In this document: one piece after another, positions 5,364 to 33,073 of the stretch
How positions within the stretch are numbered: position 1 is the stretch's first letter
How the letters are laid out: every line of letters starts with the position of its first letter
DNA from: Clostridiales bacterium
Lineage (GTDB): Bacteria; Bacillota; Clostridia; Lachnospirales; Lachnospiraceae
DNA: 33,117 bases
Direction of reading: 5' to 3'
Assembly (NCBI GenBank): GCA_012522735.1
Contig: JAAYJU010000161.1
Location: 1 to 33,117, forward strand
Translations under genes and position numbers: made by a program
Notes under the pieces: generated by a model
Told to the model about the DNA's origin: nothing
The model's database searches: none
Seen by the model: the letters and a program-made list of their open reading frames with translations, nothing else

Positions 5364-7080
5364 TATCTGACACCCCCTCATCTATCTCACCGGGTATGCC
5401 ATTATAAATTCTACCTTCCTTAAGATATAAGACTCTATCTGCCTTATAAATATCCTTATGTGAATTCCGTCTATGAGTAATCTCTCTATGAATAATCTCT
5501 CTATGAGAGATATAAAGTATGGCAGGCTTATGAGGAAGCTCCTTTAGCATAGATAGTATCCTGTCCTCTTCCTCTTCACCAAGTCCTGCTGCCACTTCAT
5601 CCAATAGTATAATTTCAGCCGTGGTTATAAGGCATCGTGCAAGTAAAATGCGTTGTCTTTCCCCTCCTGAGAGTAGAGACCCTCTTTCACCAACCTGAGA
5701 ATCAATTCCCTGAGGAAGACGATTTATTGTATCATCTAACTTAAGCTTATTAAGTATTTCTCTTACACTTTCTCTACTGATATCTTGCCTGAAGCAGGTT
5801 ACATTATCATATATTGAACCGTAAAACAGCACTGGTTCCTGAGGGATATAGCATATACGTCTCCTTAGAGTCTTAATAGGAATACTTCGAATATTGGAAC
5901 CAGATAGATATATGTTACCGGATATTGTTCTATAAAAGCCAGTTATCAGAGAAAAAATCGTTGATTTTCCGCTTCCGTTCTCACCGTATAGTAACACCGT
6001 TTCCCCTGGCATAATCTCAAAGCTTGTATTATTTAAAATCTCATCTCTTCCTTCATAGGAAAAGGATACATTTTCAAATTCTAAAGTAGCCAAGGAATGA
6101 GGAAGATTTTTAAATTCACCCTCTGTCCACTCCTCTTCAATGGGAATATTATAAACTTCATTAGTACGTTCCAAGCATACTAAAAGCTTTTGACCGTCTG
6201 CAAATAAGCTGGCTAAGCCTGATGGTAAACGAATTACCCCGTAGGCTAGAGCATAAAAGGATATTAACTGGCCTATATTCATTCGGTTGCTTAATACAAA
6301 ATAAGCGCCTGCTCCAAATAACAATAATATTGTAAATAGCCTTGTTGCCATCCCAAGAGATTGTGATATTGCCTTGTAGGTTCGTTCCTTCCTTCCTATT
6401 CTATATAGAAGGCTTTGTTCCTGCGAAAAACGACCAAGAAGCATATCCTCAAGAGCCATTGCCTTTATTAGTTCTCTTTGCGAAAAGCAAAAACTAGCTG
6501 TGGCAGCTATTCTTCCCATGATAATTTGATTTTCATTAGCATGCTTTTTTAGGGGCTTTATCAGCCTCTTATGTATCCATGTAAATAAAGGAATGATACT
6601 TAACAATATTAATGTAAGTAACCAATTTACAGATAGAAGGTATATAGTGGACATAATTCTTAGCACCTGTTGTGAGAAATTCATAACAACCCATGGTCTT
6701 AGTGCATCTGTTAAAGTATTTAGGTCATTTGAAATGACGGCTGTAAGTTCGTTTACATTATTTTTCTTCATCCAGGCAAAATCAATTGAAACCAGTCTAT
6801 CATATAAGCCTGTGCGAATATTAGCTAATGTCTTTTCCAATGCTCTGGCATAGCAGGCCTCCTTTATGTATATGGACACCATAAGCATGAGACTATACAA
6901 AAGTCCTAAAATCAATAGCTTAATAAGGCTATAGTCTACTTCCTTCGATGCTACATTAACAAATCTTCCTGTATTTGCAGCAAGAAAAATTCTACTTAAG
7001 CCTTCAATTATATTGAATATCATGGCTCCAATAAAAGTCCATAGTATAGTCCTTGTTATTGATCTTTTCAATAGGATCAT
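5356..7080 (-). CDS. ABC exporter half-transporter (TMD-NBD), first subunit
   Basis: The 574-residue product starts at ATG 7080, preceded by GGGGGG; an upstream GTG at 7131 has no ribosome binding site and lies inside an operator-like palindrome. An N-terminal six-helix ABC exporter domain is followed by an NBD with Walker A YGENGSGKST, Q-loop IPQEP, signature LSGGERQR and Walker B ILLDEV. The D-loop reads AAGLG instead of the usual SALD, losing the conserved Asp. After the switch His (ISHRE) there is a short repetitive insertion encoded by a 15-base tandem repeat. Partnered with the overlapping downstream gene, it should form a heterodimeric plasma-membrane exporter. Confidence 0.9.
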   Translation of the reverse strand: MILLKRSITRTILWTFIGAMIFNIIEGLSRIFLAANTGRFVNVASKEVDYSLIKLLILGLLYSLMLMVSIYIKEACYARALEKTLANIRTGLYDRLVSIDFAWMKKNNVNELTAVISNDLNTLTDALRPWVVMNFSQQVLRIMSTIYLLSVNWLLTLILLSIIPLFTWIHKRLIKPLKKHANENQIIMGRIAATASFCFSQRELIKAMALEDMLLGRFSQEQSLLYRIGRKERTYKAISQSLGMATRLFTILLLFGAGAYFVLSNRMNIGQLISFYALAYGVIRLPSGLASLFADGQKLLVCLERTNEVYNIPIEEEWTEGEFKNLPHSLATLEFENVSFSYEGRDEILNNTSFEIMPGETVLLYGENGSGKSTIFSLITGFYRTISGNIYLSGSNIRSIPIKTLRRRICYIPQEPVLFYGSIYDNVTCFRQDISRESVREILNKLKLDDTINRLPQGIDSQVGERGSLLSGGERQRILLARCLITTAEIILLDEVAAGLGEEEEDRILSMLKELPHKPAILYISHREIIHREITHRRNSHKDIYKADRVLYLKEGRIYNGIPGEIDEGVSDNE

Positions 7081-7131
7081 GGTTCCCCCCAGCCCATAGA
7101 TATTAAGTCCTGCTATGTAAGATTTTATCAC

Positions 7132-7160
7132 AAATTGGTCACTAGTACCAATTTATTCTA
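7132..7160 (-). promoter_or_regulatory. Exporter operon -10 element with adjoining operator-like palindrome
   Basis: A -10-like TAGAAT lies at 7160-7155 on the minus strand. Directly downstream, over the expected start of transcription, is an inverted repeat with perfect 8-base arms, AAATTGGT (7132-7139) and ACCAATTT (7147-7154), with ACTAGT in its spacer. This is the usual place for a repressor operator. No regulator gene adjoins it. Confidence 0.55.
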
Positions 7161-7199
7161 TCCATACCAGAGAATAATTTATTTTATTAAAATTACCCC

Positions 7200-7228
7200 T
7201 TGCTTTTTTTCTTATTCTATGTAATAAT
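7200..7228 (+). promoter_or_regulatory. Candidate promoter of the superoxide dismutase gene
   Basis: TTGCTT at 7200-7205 and AATAAT at 7223-7228 are 17 bases apart. Further down, AATTGT-TT-ACAATT at 7242-7255 is a small palindrome that could be an operator. The leader is about 85 bases long. Confidence 0.4.
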
Positions 7229-7321
7229 AAGTATACGATTTAATTGTTTACAATTTATTAATAAGAAAATATATTAAAACAAATAAGCACATAACATTTT
7301 ATATAAAGGAGGACTATTTAT

Positions 7322-7945
7322 ATGTTTAAACAAATCGAACTAAATTATAACTTTAATGACCTGGAGCCTCATATAGATGAGCTCACTATGAATACTCATT
7401 ATTCAAAGCACCACGCTGCTTATACTAATAACCTGAATGGGGCACTTGAGAAATTACCGCAGTTTAAGGATGCATCTATAGAGGATATATTGAAAAAGCT
7501 TTCAGATATTTCAGATGAAACTTTAAGAACAGCAGTTAGAAATAACGGCGGCGGTTATTATAACCATAATCTATATTTTGAAACCCTAAAGCCCGGTGGG
7601 AGCAAAAAACCTATGGGCGATCTAGCAAGTAGGATTGAAAAGGATTTCGGTGACTATGACTCTCTAAAAGAGAAGCTAACCTCTGCAGCGGTCGGAAGAT
7701 TTGGTTCAGGTTGGGCCTGGCTATCTGCCAATAAAAGCGGAGACCTACAGGTAACCTCCAGTCCGAATCAGGATAATCCCATTATGGATAACAAGGGATG
7801 GATCCCTATATTAGGAATTGATGTATGGGAGCATGCATATTATCTTAAATATAAGAATCTCCGTGGTGATTATATCAGCGCATTCTTTGAGGTACTTAAT
7901 TGGGATGAGGTTGCTGCAAACTATGCAAAGGTTAAATCAGCTTAA
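7322..7945 (+). CDS. sodA: Superoxide dismutase, Fe/Mn family (Mn-type signature)
   Basis: This 207-residue cytoplasmic enzyme converts superoxide to oxygen and hydrogen peroxide. The four metal ligands fall at H26, H82, D167 and H171, with the DVWEHAYY signature and Tyr34 intact. Two positions that separate Mn from Fe enzymes look Mn-like: Gly in NNGGGYYNH, where Fe enzymes have Gln, and Gln in the NQD segment at 149-151, where Fe enzymes usually have Ala. Metal use could still be cambialistic. AAAGGAGG precedes the start. The gene is monocistronic, followed by a strong terminator, and divergent from the exporter operon. Confidence 0.95.
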   Translation: MFKQIELNYNFNDLEPHIDELTMNTHYSKHHAAYTNNLNGALEKLPQFKDASIEDILKKLSDISDETLRTAVRNNGGGYYNHNLYFETLKPGGSKKPMGDLASRIEKDFGDYDSLKEKLTSAAVGRFGSGWAWLSANKSGDLQVTSSPNQDNPIMDNKGWIPILGIDVWEHAYYLKYKNLRGDYISAFFEVLNWDEVAANYAKVKSA

Positions 7946-7997
7946 TAGATTATATTGATATAAACCCTTTTTCATTTTACCAATCAACAGAAAATGA

Positions 7998-8035
7998 GGC
8001 TGTGGCGAATTTTACATATCGCTACAGCCCTTTTT
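7998..8035 (+). terminator. Terminator of sodA
   Basis: A 10-bp stem with one G-U pair (GGCTGTGGCG with CGCTACAGCC, 7998-8029) is followed by TTTTT at 8031-8035. It lies between convergent sodA and ridA and may act weakly on the minus strand as well. Confidence 0.85.
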
Positions 8036-8039
8036 CGCA

Positions 8040-8414
8040 TTATTCCACTATTGCTATTAATTCAACCTCAACCAAGACACCCTTGGGCAAGTCCTTAACT
8101 GCTACGCAGGACCTTGCAGGCCTACCTGTAAAATACTCGCCATAAACCTCATTAAATGCTGCGAAATCTCCCATATCATACAAGTAGCATGTTGTCTTAA
8201 AAACATTTTCTATAGATGTTCCTGCTTCATCAAGTAAAGCTTGCAGATTCTTCATAACCTGAATTGTCTGCTCCTTGATTCCACCTTCTACAACCTGACC
8301 GCTTTCAGGATCAATGGGAATCTGTCCCGATGTATATAATACTCCGTTAACTATTATAGCCTGGCTATAAGGTCCAATAGCCGCTGGTGCTTTTGTTGTA
8401 TTTATTTTCTGCAT
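8040..8414 (-). CDS. ridA: RidA family enamine/imine deaminase
   Basis: This 124-residue protein has full family length. It shows the YjgF/YER057c/UK114 pattern: A.GPYSQA near residue 15, YTSGQIPIDP, and the conserved arginine at about residue 100 in RSCVAV followed by LPKG and VE.E.IA. RidA proteins hydrolyse reactive enamine and imine intermediates released by PLP enzymes such as threonine dehydratase, acting as cytoplasmic trimers. The start follows AGAGGAG. It is a single-gene unit with its own promoter and a long leader holding an almost symmetrical hairpin. Confidence 0.92.
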   Translation of the reverse strand: MQKINTTKAPAAIGPYSQAIIVNGVLYTSGQIPIDPESGQVVEGGIKEQTIQVMKNLQALLDEAGTSIENVFKTTCYLYDMGDFAAFNEVYGEYFTGRPARSCVAVKDLPKGVLVEVELIAIVE

Positions 8415-8450
8415 AAGTAACTCCTCTTTTCTATTTAAGAATTTTAATTA

Positions 8451-8487
8451 CGTTTTATTATGACGAAAATTCGTGTCATATAAAACG
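8451..8487 (-). promoter_or_regulatory. Imperfect palindrome in the ridA leader
   Basis: CGTTTTATTATGACGAA (8451-8467) and TTCGTGTCATATAAAACG (8470-8487) are almost perfectly inverse, with small bulges. The element lies between the candidate promoter and the ridA start. In RNA it would be a long hairpin; as DNA it could be an operator. Confidence 0.5.
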
Positions 8488-8523
8488 AATAATTTCTCTT
8501 GGATTGATTCGCTTACTGTGAAT

Positions 8524-8552
8524 ATTATAATACAAAATTATGAATATGCAAA
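8524..8552 (-). promoter_or_regulatory. ridA promoter
   Basis: On the minus strand TTTGCA (8552-8547) is separated by 17 bases from a perfect TATAAT (8529-8524). Transcription would start about 100 bases before the ridA start codon. Confidence 0.6.
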
Positions 8553-8604
8553 GATAAGCTTATACTCTTAAAGCTTTCTTTAGTTCCATTGATTTATATA
8601 TTAC

Positions 8605-8610
8605 TATAAT
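8605..8610 (+). promoter_or_regulatory. Candidate -10 of the DMT permease gene
   Basis: A perfect TATAAT about 85 bases before the start codon. No good -35 is seen at normal spacing, so the assignment is weak. Confidence 0.3.
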
Positions 8611-8693
8611 TTTTCATAGACTATTACTTGGTTTTCGTATATAATAATACCGTTTTAACACTAGAAAATAAATTACTAATAAGGAGTCTAGAT

Positions 8694-9602
8694 ATGTGGT
8701 TTTTATTCGCTTTATTAACTACACTCTCATGGGGTGTTGCTGACCTTTTCTATAAAAAGGGAGCAGACAGCAAAGATAAATACTCTACTATGAAGATAGG
8801 AATTATGGTTGGTCTTGTAATGGGTCTTCATGCTATACTTTATATGCTTATTGAAGGGATAACATTTAATCCACTTGATATGGTAAAATACCTACCGGTA
8901 TCCTTCTTCTACATATTATCCATGCTAATTGGATACTTGGGACTCCGGTATATTGAGTTGTCCATATCCTCACCGGTACAAAATTCCTCGGGAGCTATAA
9001 CCGCTATCGTACTGATTATTTTATTTAATAAAATGCTTAGTGCTCTTGAAATCGCGGGAATCGTGGTGATAACAGCTGGTGTTATTGGTCTTGCTATTCT
9101 AGAAAAGAGATTACAGACTGCAGCACTTAAAGCAGATAATACTAAGGTGAATCCAAAATATCAGATTGGAGTCTTGGCTATAACCTTTCCAATCCTATAT
9201 GCCGTATTAGATGCCATTGGAACAATTGCAGATGGTATCTATCTAGATGAGCTTAGTTTAATAAGTGAAGATGCTGCACTCTTAGCTTATGAATTTACAT
9301 GGCTTTTGTATGCTATCATTGCCTTAATATATCTTACTGTCATAAAGAGGCAGAAATTCAATATATTTAAGGAGCCAATAAGGACTTCCGCAGCAGTATT
9401 TGAGACCGCGGGACAATTCTTCTATGTATTTGCCATGTCAAGTAATGCCGTTGTGACAGCACCCCTAATTGCATCATATAGTATCGTATCTGTTATACTA
9501 TCTAGAATCTTCCTAAAGGAAAAACTAAGCAAGCAGCATTACATCTTGATAATATTAGTTATGATTGGTATTGCGGTATTGGGTATAGCAGGAGAATTGT
9601 AA
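8694..9602 (+). CDS. DMT superfamily (EamA-like) permease
   Basis: The 302-residue product starts at ATG 8694 with AAGGAG seven bases upstream; an earlier TTG has no ribosome binding site. It is hydrophobic throughout, with about ten membrane helices in two homologous halves separated by a short charged linker (about residues 135-150). This is the EamA/DMT pattern seen in metabolite exporters and importers. Helix starts such as LTTLSWGVADLFYKKG and a C-terminal half ending in LIILVMIGIAVLGI fit the family. The substrate cannot be predicted. The gene stands alone between ridA and suf, with its own terminator. Confidence 0.85.
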   Translation: MWFLFALLTTLSWGVADLFYKKGADSKDKYSTMKIGIMVGLVMGLHAILYMLIEGITFNPLDMVKYLPVSFFYILSMLIGYLGLRYIELSISSPVQNSSGAITAIVLIILFNKMLSALEIAGIVVITAGVIGLAILEKRLQTAALKADNTKVNPKYQIGVLAITFPILYAVLDAIGTIADGIYLDELSLISEDAALLAYEFTWLLYAIIALIYLTVIKRQKFNIFKEPIRTSAAVFETAGQFFYVFAMSSNAVVTAPLIASYSIVSVILSRIFLKEKLSKQHYILIILVMIGIAVLGIAGEL

Positions 9603-25744: not shown

Positions 25745-26017
25745 TTAGGAACTGTAGTGCATATACCTTCCTGCCTGTATATCCCACATTTCATAATATT
25801 TGCCCTTAAGTTTAAGTAGGTCCTCATGAGTTCCCTCTTCTATGATTACTCCATTTTCCATCATATATATTCTATCTGTTCTTCTTGTAGTGGATAATCT
25901 GTGAGATATGAATATAACTGATTTATCATATGCCGCCTTATACATAGACTGATTAAATTGATATTCCGACATGGGGTCAAGAGCTGATGATGGCTCGTCA
26001 AGTAACAATATAATGTA
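25745..26017 (-). pseudogene. C-terminal remnant of an ABC transporter ATP-binding domain
   Basis: The frame begins abruptly at Walker B (ILLLDEPSSALDP) and continues through the D-loop, H-loop FISHRLSTTRRTDRIY and the usual C-terminal tail (GVIIEEGTHEDLLKLKGKYYEMW). Walker A, the signature motif and the membrane domain are missing, and upstream codons carry no homology. There is no ATG or ribosome binding site. It is the 3' end of a deleted ABC exporter gene. It is not part of the exporter pair at 3.7-7.1 kb, which is complete. Confidence 0.75.
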
Positions 26018-26118: not shown

Positions 26119-26346
26119 TTATTTTACATTGGATTTAAGAACCTCATAACCCATGTTGGTGATTGCACTTTCGATTTGATCTATTGCTAGCTTATCCTCA
26201 TCAAAGCTCACCTTCACTTTACTTGAGTTAAATAATACTTTTAATGAATCCATGTCGATGCCGTCTAATTTCTTAACTGCACCTTCAATCTTTTGCATAC
26301 ATGATGGACATGTTAAGGTTTCTAATTGAATTGTTGCTGCTTTCAT
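26119..26346 (-). CDS. HMA-domain metallochaperone (CopZ-like)
   Basis: The 75-residue protein is a single heavy-metal-associated domain with beta-alpha-beta-beta-alpha-beta layout and the metal-binding CPSC motif near residue 13 (TCPSCMQKIE). Such proteins carry Cu(I), Zn or other soft metals to P1B ATPases. ATG 26346 has GGAAGGAG at good spacing; an ATG two codons earlier is too close to it. The ATPase encoded just upstream lacks an N-terminal HMA domain, so this may supply that function in trans. It has its own FNR-box promoter and terminator. Confidence 0.88.
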   Translation of the reverse strand: MKAATIQLETLTCPSCMQKIEGAVKKLDGIDMDSLKVLFNSSKVKVSFDEDKLAIDQIESAITNMGYEVLKSNVK

Positions 26347-26402
26347 AATCATTCTCCTTCCAAATCTTGTTTATATTTAACTTTTTTCTTGTCTATGATT
26401 TA

Positions 26403-26444
26403 ATATTACCCTATTCCGTATTATAAAACCTTGATCTATATCAA
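26403..26444 (-). promoter_or_regulatory. FNR/CRP-type box and -10 upstream of the HMA gene
   Basis: A perfect TTGAT-N4-ATCAA palindrome lies at 26431-26444. On the minus strand TAATAT (26408-26403) begins 23 bases after its end, the spacing of a class II activated promoter. The palindrome with its AAAAC/GTTTT flanks could also form a weak terminator hairpin for the ATPase gene. Confidence 0.6.
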
Positions 26445-26477
26445 GTTTTATGATGTTTTTTGATACTAAAGATTGAT

Positions 26478-28349
26478 TTAGCTTCTTTTATTTCTAAGAC
26501 GATAGCGTAGTAGCCTCATACCATTAATGATAACTACTAAGATACTACCCTCATGTACTAGCATACCTATGGACATATTCATCCAGCTACTGAAGAAAAC
26601 GCTGGCAAGTAATACCAATACAACACCAATTGCTATGAAAATATTCTGCCTCATATTTCTGGATATTGCTTTTGTTAATCCAAGGGCAACGGGTAATCTG
26701 CCAAAATCCGAGTTCATTAAGACTACATCTGACGTCTCAATAGCTACATCTGTTCCACTTCCCATAGCGATACCTATATCTGCTAAGGCTAATGAAGGAC
26801 TGTCATTGACACCGTCTCCAACGAAAGCGACAATCTGGCCTTTTTCCTTAAGCTTCTTAAGATATTCGGCTTTATCTTCTGGGAGCATATTACCATGTGC
26901 CTCTGTAAGACCCAGCTCACGACTTACTACATCTACTGTTCCCTGGTTGTCACCAGATAGCATTACAAGGTTCTTTACTCCTAAATCCTTTAGTCTCTGA
27001 AGATCTTCCTTAACTCCCGGTCTAATCCGATCACGAATACCCATTAATACTATAAGCTTACCATCAACAGAAGTTAATACAAGAGAGTTACCATTCTTCT
27101 CAAAACTATCTACATCTTCCTTAGCCTTTCCATCCAATTTAACATTTTCTCTTTCCATTAAGGCTACATTACCTACAGCTACTCTGTGACCATTTACGGT
27201 GGCTACGATTCCACCACCCTTAACAACCTCCGTATTTTCAACAGTTGAGAATTTTGTGTCACCAATTTTCTTTAATACTGCCTTTGCCAATGGATGATCC
27301 GATTCTCTTTCAATACTTGCAAGATATCCCAATACCTCATCCACATTTTCAGTATAATATTCTGTCTCTGCTACAGCTGGATTTCCTTCTGTTAGTGTAC
27401 CGGTTTTATCAAAAATCATTGTATCAACACGGCTAAAATCATTTATTACTTCACTACCTTTTAGAAGTATACCATGTCGTGCTCCATTACCGATACCTGC
27501 AACATTAGATACAGGTACACCGATAACCAGTGCTCCAGGGCAACCAAGAACAAGAATTGTTATAGCCAGTTCAATATCTCTTGATATTAACCATACTACA
27601 AAGGCTAATACTAGGACTGCCGGTGTGTAATATTTTGAGAAACGGTCAATAAATCGTTCTGCTGCTGACTTTGAATCCTGAGCTTCTTCTACAAGTTCTA
27701 TAATTTTACCAAATGTCGTGTCTTCACCAACTCGGTCTGCCTGAATCTGAATAGTTCCATTCTCTAATATAGTACCGGCGAATACCTTAGACCCCTCTTC
27801 CTTGCCTACAGGAAGTGATTCACCTGTAATACTTGCTTCGTTAATATGACCTTCGCCTGATAAAACAGTGCCATCAACAGGGATCTTTGCGCCTGTCTTT
27901 ACTAGAAGAATATCACCAACATCTACATCATCGACTTCCACCTCTTCGAACTCCCCGTTTTCCATCTTCTTTAGTGCACTCTCCGGAGCCATCTCTGTCA
28001 ATGCCTTTATGGCTGAACGGGTCTTATTAAGTGTACGTAATTCTAAGAAGGCACCGAATAAGAACAGGAATGTAACTATAGCCGATTCTTCATAATTTTT
28101 TATAATAAAGGCTCCTATAACTGCAATCGTTACTAGGACATCTATACTTACTACTTTTACTCTTAAGGCCTGAATTGCTTGGATTGCTATAGGTATAACA
28201 CCTAATATAGATGCAATTATGAGTGCCCAGGTAAAGATGTTCATGTTGCCAGTAGTCCATTTAGTAATAAAGGCTACTGCGATTAATATTCCACTTATTA
28301 ATGTTATTTGATTTTTCCTACCTAATATATGGTTCAAATGCTTCTGCAT
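26478..28349 (-). CDS. P1B-type heavy-metal translocating ATPase with CPG motif
   Basis: The 623-residue pump has all P-type hallmarks: TGES at 175-178, the phosphorylated D314 in DKTGT, the P1B-specific HP at 352-353 and GDGVND at 511-516. There is no N-terminal HMA domain. The membrane metal-site motif is CPG (270-272, in LGCPGALVIG) instead of CPC, SPC or TPC, and the last helix has HEGS (599-602), similar to the P1B-4 HEG(G/S) element of Fe/Co/Zn exporters. Metal specificity is therefore uncertain: Fe(II), Zn or Cd are all possible. AGGAGG precedes the start. It is 99 bases after the RIC-like gene and probably co-transcribed with it. Confidence 0.9.
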   Translation of the reverse strand: MQKHLNHILGRKNQITLISGILIAVAFITKWTTGNMNIFTWALIIASILGVIPIAIQAIQALRVKVVSIDVLVTIAVIGAFIIKNYEESAIVTFLFLFGAFLELRTLNKTRSAIKALTEMAPESALKKMENGEFEEVEVDDVDVGDILLVKTGAKIPVDGTVLSGEGHINEASITGESLPVGKEEGSKVFAGTILENGTIQIQADRVGEDTTFGKIIELVEEAQDSKSAAERFIDRFSKYYTPAVLVLAFVVWLISRDIELAITILVLGCPGALVIGVPVSNVAGIGNGARHGILLKGSEVINDFSRVDTMIFDKTGTLTEGNPAVAETEYYTENVDEVLGYLASIERESDHPLAKAVLKKIGDTKFSTVENTEVVKGGGIVATVNGHRVAVGNVALMERENVKLDGKAKEDVDSFEKNGNSLVLTSVDGKLIVLMGIRDRIRPGVKEDLQRLKDLGVKNLVMLSGDNQGTVDVVSRELGLTEAHGNMLPEDKAEYLKKLKEKGQIVAFVGDGVNDSPSLALADIGIAMGSGTDVAIETSDVVLMNSDFGRLPVALGLTKAISRNMRQNIFIAIGVVLVLLASVFFSSWMNMSIGMLVHEGSILVVIINGMRLLRYRLRNKRS

Positions 28350-28448
28350 GTTTCTCCTCCTTATCTTACCATTTATGTTCTTCCAAAAAACCTTCTGGAA
28401 AATATCTCTGGTTTCTAATATTATTTTATCATTTGTGTCTATAACTAA

Positions 28449-28742
28449 TTATCCGTGGTATGCTTTGTCTATTTCAGAAAGCATATTATATACTGCCTCG
28501 TAGCTTTCACATACATCACCGGGTACAGAATAATTATCTGTAATCTCTCTTAGTTGCTTGAATTCATTATCCAATTCTGGTTTGTCGGCTCCTGCCTTTT
28601 TTACCTTTAGATTAATTTCCTCGAATACCTTGCGTACATCATGGAATTCTGGATGATTTGGTCCGTGTACTCTATCTACAATAGGTACATACTGCTCCAA
28701 GGTCTTTAGGTTTCTTTCATTTACTTTATTAAATGTCGTCAT
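28449..28742 (-). CDS. Small RIC/ScdA-like protein, possibly non-haem iron related
   Basis: The 97-residue product is helical. Its segment PIVDRVHGPNHPEFHDVRKVFEEI (residues 20-43) resembles the VHG..HPEL segment of ScdA/YtfE (RIC) di-iron proteins that repair Fe-S clusters after NO or oxidative damage. Only part of the usual histidine set is here (H26, H30, H34, H96), so a canonical di-iron site is doubtful. The start has a GTGAGGA ribosome binding site. It is first in the unit with the P1B ATPase, directly behind an FNR-type box, which fits a redox or NO response. The family call is by motif resemblance only. Confidence 0.6.
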   Translation of the reverse strand: MTTFNKVNERNLKTLEQYVPIVDRVHGPNHPEFHDVRKVFEEINLKVKKAGADKPELDNEFKQLREITDNYSVPGDVCESYEAVYNMLSEIDKAYHG

Positions 28743-28788
28743 ATTATTTTCCTCACTTTCAAATTGTTTTTGTTTGCTTTGTAACTAC

Positions 28789-28830
28789 ATTCTAACAAAG
28801 GTTATCATATAATAAATTGATGTAAATCAA
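28789..28830 (-). promoter_or_regulatory. FNR/CRP-type box with class II promoter geometry
   Basis: A perfect TTGAT-N4-ATCAA palindrome at 28817-28830. On the minus strand, 23 bases past its end, lies TGT-TAGAAT with the hexamer at 28794-28789, an extended -10. The box centre would sit near -41.5, as in activator-dependent FNR promoters. Confidence 0.7.
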
Positions 28831-30422: not shown

Positions 30423-30989
30423 CTATGATATCTTTTGTAACTTCTTACTGTGTTCAGCAACAACCTTTTTTAATAGCTCTATGTCAGCCTTCATTTCCTC
30501 ATGTTCCTTATTAGAGCTTTCATACCGAATAGCTGCAGGAAGATAGTTCTCGGCTAATAGCTTTATGGCAGGGCTAATTTCATTCTCTAAAGTAATATTT
30601 ATTTTATGTACTTCACTCTTCACTTCAACCATGTCAGTCTTCAGTACCGCTATATCGCTCTTCACTTCAACCATGTCAGTCTTCAGTACCGCTATATCGC
30701 TCTTCACTTCAACCATGTCAGTCTTCAATTCACTAACATCCGTCTTTAGTACCGCTATATCACTCTTCACTTCAATCATGTCAGTCTTCAATTCACTAAC
30801 ATCCGTCTTTAGTACCGCTATATCACTCTTCACTTCAATCATGTCAGTCTTCAAATCACTAACATCCGTCTTTAGTACCGCGATGTCACTCTTCATATCA
30901 GTAATATCACTCTTCATAGGTTCTAGTTGAACACTTAGCTTCTCATCCATCATATCAGATAAAGCTAACAACAATTCATTATTATTCAA
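30423..30989 (-). CDS. Heptad-repeat coiled-coil protein
   Basis: The 188-residue protein starts most likely at TTG 30989, behind AAGGGGTG; a GTG at 31013 is in frame but has no site. About residues 30-130 are near-identical repeats of 21 residues (VKSDIAVLKTDVSELKTDMIE) shortening to 14 residues (VKSDIAVLKTDMVE), all multiples of seven, giving a long uninterrupted coiled coil. A second helical region closes the protein. There is no signal peptide or membrane helix, so it is cytoplasmic. Function is unknown; similar proteins are common in Clostridia. The gene is a single unit with its own extended -10 promoter. Confidence 0.8.
   Translation of the reverse strand: MNNNELLLALSDMMDEKLSVQLEPMKSDITDMKSDIAVLKTDVSDLKTDMIEVKSDIAVLKTDVSELKTDMIEVKSDIAVLKTDVSELKTDMVEVKSDIAVLKTDMVEVKSDIAVLKTDMVEVKSEVHKINITLENEISPAIKLLAENYLPAAIRYESSNKEHEEMKADIELLKKVVAEHSKKLQKIS
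30621..30893 (-). repeat. In-frame 42- and 63-bp tandem repeats
   Basis: Two 42-bp units (30621-30704) are followed by three 63-bp units starting at 30705, 30768 and 30831. Units are nearly identical at DNA level, which suggests recent expansion by slippage or unequal exchange. Confidence 0.85.
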
Positions 30990-31020
30990 AGAATCACACC
31001 CCTTACTATGCACTAATTTG

Positions 31021-32987: not shown

Positions 32988-33036
32988 ACAAAAATAGAGT
33001 AGAGAAATAATTGCTAAGAATTATTTCCCTCTCGTT

Positions 33037-33067
33037 GAACCGTACGTACGGGTCTCGTATACGGCTC
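33037..33067 (-). ncRNA. Group II intron domain V
   Basis: A 31-base hairpin pairing GAGCCGTA with TACGGTTC, with a short distal ACG/CGT stem. It is a few bases shorter than the commonest 34-base form but keeps the conserved lower-stem sequence. Confidence 0.8.
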
Positions 33068-33073
33068 TACAAT

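Follow-up and report, generated by a model that had tools for sequence, protein, structure and literature searches.

What is the function of a RIC-like gene, a P1B-type metal pump gene and a free HMA-domain gene that stand together behind two FNR-type boxes, and which regulator acts on them? The question is raised by a 33,117-nucleotide stretch of DNA from a Clostridiales bacterium (assembly GCA_012522735.1, contig JAAYJU010000161.1), which was analysed at its full length and is called the window below. On balance, and judging from sequence comparisons, we consider it probable that the three genes form a small, mobile and self-contained efflux module for a divalent metal, most likely iron(II), and that this module is activated by an Flp-type protein of the CRP/FNR family. 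The genes and promoter elements concerned are the following.

28817..28830, no strand: FNR/Flp-type box 1, TTGATTTACATCAA in minus-strand reading, an exact palindrome.
28789..28794, minus strand: -10-like hexamer TAGAAT (5/6 match), 22 bases past box 1 and ahead of the RIC-like gene.
28449..28742, minus strand: RIC-like protein (mini-RIC) of 97 aa, a weak TIGR03652 match below the cut-off.
26478..28349, minus strand: P1B-type heavy-metal ATPase of 623 aa (PF00122, PF00702, TIGR01525).
26431..26444, no strand: FNR/Flp-type box 2, TTGATATAGATCAA in minus-strand reading, exact, in the gap between the ATPase and HMA genes.
26403..26408, minus strand: -10-like hexamer TAATAT (4/6 match), 22 bases past box 2 and ahead of the HMA gene.
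26119..26352, minus strand: free HMA-domain, metallochaperone-like protein with a CPSC motif (PF00403).

The two exact TTGAT-N4-ATCAA palindromes that an earlier note on this DNA had picked out are both present at the positions listed, and its distance of 23 bases between box and -10 hexamer also held, in the sense that the hexamer starts at base 23 after the box, with 22 bases in between. The note had further called the two promoters identical, which is true of the ten fixed bases alone; the N4 stretches and the -10 hexamers differ. In 100 dinucleotide shuffles of the window, exact sites occurred at a mean of 0.12, and only one shuffle reached the two that were observed. When one mismatch was allowed, five sites were counted for 3.5 expected; thus, within a single window, the exact sites alone are informative. 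A box near -41.5 is the class II geometry of CRP/FNR activators, and a box at a fixed and conserved distance from the -10, as in promoters of that class, was found when relatives were compared.

For this comparison, 93 non-redundant mini-RIC loci were retained out of 115 RIC-type frames; excluded were four frames failing the strict VHGxxHxEF rule (L087, L088, L102, L193), one with a short upstream stretch and 17 redundant ones whose upstream stretch was over 80% identical to that of a retained locus. Within about 220 bases upstream, an exact TTGAY-N4-RTCAA was present at 50 of the 93 loci (200 shuffles: mean 0.22, maximum 2) and a box with at most one mismatch at 73 (shuffles: mean 5.1, maximum 11). 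The strict TTGAT-N4-ATCAA occurred at 26 loci, and 20 had no site with at most one mismatch. The -10 could be scored at 72 of the 73 boxed loci. At a gap of 22 bases, at least 4/6 positions of TATAAT were matched at 63 of these 72 loci and at least 5/6 at 51; among gaps of 8 to 44 bases, the next best was 27, with 27 and 11 loci, respectively. The earlier note had proposed to look for the boxes in relatives; both the boxes and their fixed -10 spacing are conserved there.

The second box gave a similar picture. Between ATPase and HMA genes, a box with at most one mismatch was found at 26 of 77 non-redundant loci, 18 of them exact (shuffles: mean 0.03 and maximum 1 for exact sites, mean 1.06 and maximum 5 with one mismatch), and at 20 of these loci the -10 is preserved as well. 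All 26 fall among the 46 loci at which the intergenic gap measures at least 80 bases, and none among the 31 with a shorter gap, which indicates that the HMA gene is often under the same kind of switch wherever the gap can accommodate a promoter for it alone. That chance boxes lie here beside an ordinary metal operon is hardly credible: one-mismatch boxes are indeed frequent by chance in a single window, but the conserved box, its spacing and the second box, each set against shuffled controls, rule this out.

The spacing also bears on the direction of control. The boxes could be repressor sites, at which an Flp or FNR protein would block the promoters until released upon a metal or redox change; CRP/FNR proteins can repress, and a further -10-like TATAAT lies five bases past box 2. 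We hold this to be quite unlikely, given that the -10 peak falls at the class II activator position (63 of 72 loci, with no more than 27 at any other gap) and that nine exact TTGAY-N4-RTCAA boxes on five plasmid records are all followed at gap 22 by TATACT, TATAAT or TATATT.

The contig of the window yielded no CRP/FNR gene, and several exist elsewhere in the genome. One of them, at 13951-14673 of contig 39, encodes a close homologue of the Flp-type regulators that are linked to the module in relatives (61-65% identical to the four closest). The contig 39 protein has CRP/FNR domains (PF13545, 68.7 bits), an FNR-type recognition helix (TTPETISRKL), an N-terminal Cys and a Cys in the column of FNR C122, and thus has the features of an Flp-type protein. 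A global anaerobic FNR might instead drive the module among many anaerobic genes; the candidate would be the FNR-like protein of contig 74 (N-terminus C-x2-C-x4-C), the E-T-V-S-R helix of which could read the same box. This is unlikely, since the four closest linked regulators are only 29-35% identical to the contig 74 protein and since the full pattern, TTGAYNNNNRTCAA-N22-TANNNT, has only four matches in the 2.8-Mb genome, two of them the module promoters. The third match (contig 17, 10413-10454, L286) is contained in the terminal part of a predicted frame; the next gene on its strand follows after some 100 bases, is S-adenosylmethionine (SAM)-synthetase-like when judged by eye, and may be an additional target. 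The fourth has no same-strand gene just downstream. A reversed control pattern had no match in this genome. Exact boxes without regard to the -10 number 11, and eight of the nine outside the module fall within predicted frames.

The linkage of such regulators to the module was surveyed at 120 loci of relatives (L086-L125 and L141-L220), and a Flp-type CRP/FNR gene was in view at 13. The linked Crp/Fnr gene that the earlier note had suggested looking for therefore does adjoin the module in some relatives. Near-identical copies stand at L091/L092, L207, L215-L217 and L220, others at L095, L102 and L116, and more distant Flp-type genes at L093, L104 and L125; at L101, L120, L121 and L159, a CRP/FNR-like gene near the module lacks a helix of the E-T-x-S-R type. 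Replicons of Tetragenococcus, Ligilactobacillus, Leuconostoc and Acetoanaerobium also carry Flp-type genes close to the module or to its HMA and pump genes. Plasmid pMP118 of Ligilactobacillus salivarius UCC118, for instance, has the regulator, HMA and ATPase genes, and no ric gene is annotated within the examined stretch. The linked regulators have the recognition helix E-[TS]-x-S-R, a Cys shortly ahead of VPIF and a Cys in the FNR C122 column; a Cys/His-rich N-terminus is present in most of them and absent in Leuconostoc. The sequences L222-L243 were selected by the helix pattern E/Q-T/V-x-S/T-R, so that the helix cannot count as independent evidence in their case; this selection was not applied to the linked regulators.

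Box and regulator were also found to go together across genomes. For this purpose, ATPase genes were collected with a DNA pattern for CPGA(L)xIG that takes no account of neighbours and that matched 34 of 398 genomes of the phylum. A homologue of the regulator (E up to 1e-30) was present in 20 of these 34 genomes and in 3 of 34 pattern-free genomes, taken from the same families where possible. Among the 27 CPG genomes with a mini-RIC (the other seven being excluded), 17 had both box and regulator, five the box only, none the regulator only and five neither (Fisher p=0.003, kinship ignored; boxes with one mismatch were admitted, and some, such as those of L094 and L119, are weak); one of the box-only genomes is 79% complete. 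Furthermore, over 13 regulator-bearing module genomes, 15 of the 24 full-pattern matches stand at the module, one box of G946 being counted twice, once per direction. Five regulator-free module genomes had no full-pattern match and three genomes without the CPG pattern had two altogether, and the reversed control pattern gave seven across the 20 genomes scanned. From the 15 of 24 matches, the predicted Flp regulon looks close to private to the module.

The same collection served to follow the gene set. A RIC-type gene was found near the ATPase in 28 of the 34 CPG-pattern genomes (27 mini-RIC and one full-length; 1.4 kb apart in L100) and an HMA gene at 30 of the 34 loci. The six loci without a RIC-type gene comprise three at contig ends (L095, L109, L118) and three with none in view (L115, L120, L121); all four HMA misses lie at contig ends. 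In the opposite direction, a scan of 84,980 species genomes for the RIC-like family gave 338 related stretches, and the best 80 of these 338 were examined: a CPG ATPase was present at 71, while the remaining nine either stop at the contig edge (six) or have no ATPase in view (three). The order RIC-ATPase-HMA was kept at 90 of 111 CPG loci (overlapping sets, with some duplicates), with variants such as ATPase-HMA-RIC (L088) and full-length RIC-HMA-HMA-ATPase (L102). That the same partners are re-assembled in differing orders argues for a functional tie. The three-gene grouping that the earlier note had proposed to search for in relatives is thus conserved, and genome comparison shows that the RIC-like, CPG-type ATPase and HMA genes travel together across the Bacillota.

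In the taxonomic family of the window itself the RIC-like family is rare: 7 of 250 genomes matched, only some of them convincingly, and a RIC search across the order found 25 of 344 genomes, mostly with long RIC proteins. A second, longer RIC-like paralogue (L025/L087, contig 121 of G055) has no pump beside it, and its neighbours are flavodoxin-like and ferredoxin-like (named by eye). As for accessory genes, 122 of 165 listed neighbour proteins were surveyed (28 small or overlapping frames were left out by eye and 15 lay past the 150th), and among the 25 of 196 families listed, only CRP/FNR (five) and LysR (four) recur more than three times.

The pump can be described more closely. The window ATPase scored 566 bits against TIGR01525 (cut-off 346) and carries DKTGT and GDGVND, as expected of a P1B core; CPG stands in its metal-site helix and VHEGS near its C-terminus, and no HMA domain was found in it. 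In an alignment to solved pumps, the CPG fell opposite the SPC of sCoaT (7qbz) and the CPC of ZntA and CopA, and VHEGS was aligned with the VHEGS of sCoaT, not with the Asp of ZntA. CPG was present in 24/24 aligned ATPases, 15 of which had been chosen by this motif and nine not (the window ATPase and eight reached via the RIC-like gene). In the RIC-selected set, all RIC-adjacent ATPases that extend to transmembrane helix 4 (TM4) read CPGALVIG. The hallmarks of P1B-4 pumps are SPC in TM4 and His-Glu-Gly-Ser in the last helix (TM6). Of these, the last-helix motif was found, with H599 and S602 in all 24 sequences, Glu in 23 and Gly or Ala between. When the CPG pumps were placed in an unrooted tree together with 19 further P1B sequences, 18 of them distinct, they separated from all of these with a support of 1.00; a Foldseek search with the ATPase model ranked copper, zinc and sCoaT-type pumps alike and did not discriminate the substrate, and no assigned metal was found for the CPG clade.

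The HMA protein matched PF00403 at 48 bits (cut-off 24.8) and has its CxxC in the form CPSC, as in HMA metallochaperones; its gene, which is conserved among relatives, contains a second in-frame ATG at 26346. The module was also considered as the copper-type locus of the genome and rejected as such, this locus being on contig 19, where another pump, which has a CPC motif and two HMA domains, adjoins a small HMA gene. A further CPC-motif pump and an HMA protein are encoded on contig 37.

The third component proved to differ from its namesake. The RIC-like protein of the window scored 48.5 bits against TIGR03652, far from the cut-off of 204.7. Its predicted model (predicted local distance difference test, pLDDT, 95.5) has the hemerythrin-like fold of RIC, and the top 12 Foldseek matches were all ScdA of S. 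aureus or YtfE of E. coli, at a best E-value of only 0.004. According to the accessible part of PMC9268430, the iron ligands of YtfE are H84, H129, H160, H204, E133 and E208. These positions were mapped through ScdA, by weak profile alignments, onto 95 distinct homologues. None of the 95 has a His at the position of H129 or of H160, 2/95 have one at the H84 position, the E133 position was acidic in 64/95, and the RIC-like protein stops ahead of the stretch with H204 and E208. Other residues are invariant, namely H26, H30, E32 and C78 (95/95), and H34 is kept in 81/95; besides H26, H30 and H34, any His occurs in at most 42/95. With the di-iron ligands missing and the TIGR03652 score below the cut-off, a canonical RIC was ruled out and repair chemistry should not be assumed; in this respect the earlier reading is not supported as written. 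By its sequence, the mini-RIC is RIC-derived and is no RIC di-iron protein, although Tetragenococcus plasmid records label it as a di-iron repair protein. In the genome of the window, no ScdA_N domain was found; full-length RICs lacking this domain were not sought.

Which metal would be exported? Evidence came from plasmids of Tetragenococcus. On pTO1 of T. osmophilus (L281), each of four exact TTGAY-N4-RTCAA boxes is followed by a -10 at gap 22. One of these boxes stands ahead of the regulator gene, one ahead of the ATPase gene, one ahead of a Dps gene and one ahead of an HMA-ric-HMA-ric-HMA-Dps run; HMA and ric are thus repeated in tandem with Dps, and two further HMA genes have no box directly ahead. 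On pTHF of T. halophilus, one box with a gap-22 -10 precedes HMA-ric-HMA-Dps. We infer that these HMA/ric/Dps runs are co-transcribed. PMC9268430 reports that YtfE and Dps interact, PMC5039431 that the dpr gene changes in an S. suis flpS mutant, and PMC10654040 that P1B-4 pumps export Fe2+ when cells are loaded with iron. Iron(II) is the likeliest exported metal, a deduction from three weak lines, which are the TM6 motif, the RIC ancestry and the Dps genes. The view of the earlier note, a module that traffics or exports a metal, perhaps iron, is hence borne out in part: a role in export agrees with the P1B pump, with the HMA protein and with the box-preceded Dps genes of Tetragenococcus.

The same Flp-controlled module might export zinc, cadmium, cobalt or copper, the RIC-like protein being then a general metal-binding adaptor. 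An HMA protein and a cysteine in TM4 are typical of copper and zinc pumps. In addition, FlpA is filed under the metal homeostasis regulons of lactic acid bacteria, and iron is not named for it in the portion of PMC3616900 that is available. In the other direction, the His-Glu-x-Ser of TM6 is neither the Asp of ZntA nor the copper-pump sequence, the CPC pumps and HMA proteins of contigs 19 and 37 would, by their motifs, already serve copper and zinc/cadmium, and the Dps and RIC homologies favour iron. We regard another metal as possible, if on the doubtful side.

Several points weigh against an Flp-activated iron(II) efflux module. The HMA proteins with CxxC are best known for Cu(I) or Zn(II). 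The missing di-iron ligand set of RIC weakens the argument for iron, and no iron family recurs among the 25 of 196 neighbour families listed. SPC, the P1B-4 motif of TM4, is replaced by CPG, and the lone SPC/HEGS pump of the tree (L265) joins two CPC pumps (support 0.89), outside the CPG clade. This grouping means that a shared TM6 motif is no proof of P1B-4 membership, and together with the CPG it makes the transfer of a substrate by analogy weak. On the side of control, the regulator gene of contig 39 is unlinked to the module and has no obvious box in its upstream stretch, the second -10 of the window is weak, and 2 of the 13 regulator-bearing module genomes are without any full-pattern match. 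Finally, at L188, L202 and L208, a RIC-like gene with an upstream box has no P1B ATPase within the examined stretch.

The module appears to be mobile. A stretch of 2.4-2.9 kb, holding the whole or nearly the whole module, is 96.6-98.3% identical in Globicatella (Lactobacillales), Enterococcus aquimarinus, Hathewaya (Eubacteriales), Fusibacter and others. That near-identical copies occur in different taxonomic orders (L206 at 5821-8730, L091, L092, L207, L213, L215-L217, L220) suggests recent horizontal transfer and a selectable advantage; upstream of the module in L206 lie transposase-like frames (named by eye). Copies in metagenome-assembled genomes of methanogens (L199, L204, L212) have no box and may be contamination. 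Taken together, the 338 RIC-like stretches in 84,980 genomes and the CPG pump at 71 of the best 80 indicate a widespread module, which is, as far as these genomes tell, common to many anaerobes and some lactic acid bacteria.

Elsewhere in the window, an 87-aa frame at 25745-26008 (minus strand) resembles the C-terminal end of ABC exporter ATPases and is probably a remnant, a 196-aa protein built of repeated coiled-coil-like units is encoded at 30423-31013 (minus strand), and a group II intron match (RF00029, 46.4 bits) lies at 32994-33069 (minus strand), close to the window end.

For the Flp-activated efflux module, the following scheme can be proposed. The Flp-type CRP/FNR protein, here the product of the contig 39 gene, would bind the predicted boxes through its E-T-x-S-R helix and would activate both transcription units once oxygen, redox stress or excess metal alters a cluster or metal site at its N-terminal cysteines. 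The HMA protein would then deliver the metal, likeliest Fe(II), to the CPG pump, which has no HMA domain itself and would export it, while the mini-RIC would bind, shield or hand on the metal via its invariant His, Glu and Cys residues, with no di-iron centre of the RIC type. A bolder version, rather speculative and somewhat unlikely as a whole, is that the CPG ATPases constitute a novel P1B subgroup for the export of Fe(II) received from an HMA-fold iron chaperone, with the mini-RIC, devoid of a di-iron centre, as an iron adaptor and a near-private Flp that senses iron or oxygen by its Cys/His-rich arm, the module being the main physiological target of Flp.

A literature search yielded no paper on these three genes as a set and none on a P1B pump of the CPG type, which is a weak negative since most subscription journals lie outside its coverage. 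The earlier note knew of no described system of this make-up; this is qualified by the listing of FlpA under metal homeostasis in the accessible part of PMC3616900. The near-private box offers a concrete target for FNR-like Flp regulators, and the module is open to testing in hosts that are in culture, among them Ligilactobacillus salivarius UCC118 and Tetragenococcus. It is widespread, yet its small protein bears the di-iron repair label in the Tetragenococcus records despite the missing ligands.

Compared with known systems, the pump shares with P1B-4 ATPases a P1B core without N-terminal HMA domain, the last-helix VHEGS of sCoaT and, as predicted, ATP-driven metal export. It differs from the P1B-4 Fe2+ exporters PfeT, FrvA and PmtA, as these are treated in the available part of PMC10654040, by CPG in place of SPC, by its separate clade and by the linked HMA and RIC-like genes; the control also differs, being of a predicted Flp type here and by Fur/PerR for FrvA and PmtA, according to titles cited in that part. 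A free HMA protein adjoining a P1B pump recalls CopZ/CopA, but the pump of the module, unlike CopA, has neither an HMA domain nor copper-pump motifs. With RIC/ScdA/YtfE (TIGR03652), the mini-RIC has in common the predicted fold, the VHGxxHP stretch and the C-terminal stretch as far as the Cys; unlike them, it measures 97 aa, has residues other than His at the di-iron His positions and stops before the last ligand helix. Finally, the regulator is, like the Flp proteins of lactic acid bacteria (FlpA, FlpB, FlpS and L. casei Flp), of the CRP/FNR type with a Cys near the N-terminus; those proteins have an E-T-x-S-R helix and TTGAT-N4-ATCAA sites. FlpS is reported to be oxygen-dependent and to target the arginine deiminase operon and other metabolic genes, as far as the accessible part of PMC5039431 goes. 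In contrast to FlpS with these targets, and to FlpA with a metal regulon left unspecified in what is available of PMC3616900, the predicted sites here lie largely at one metal module.

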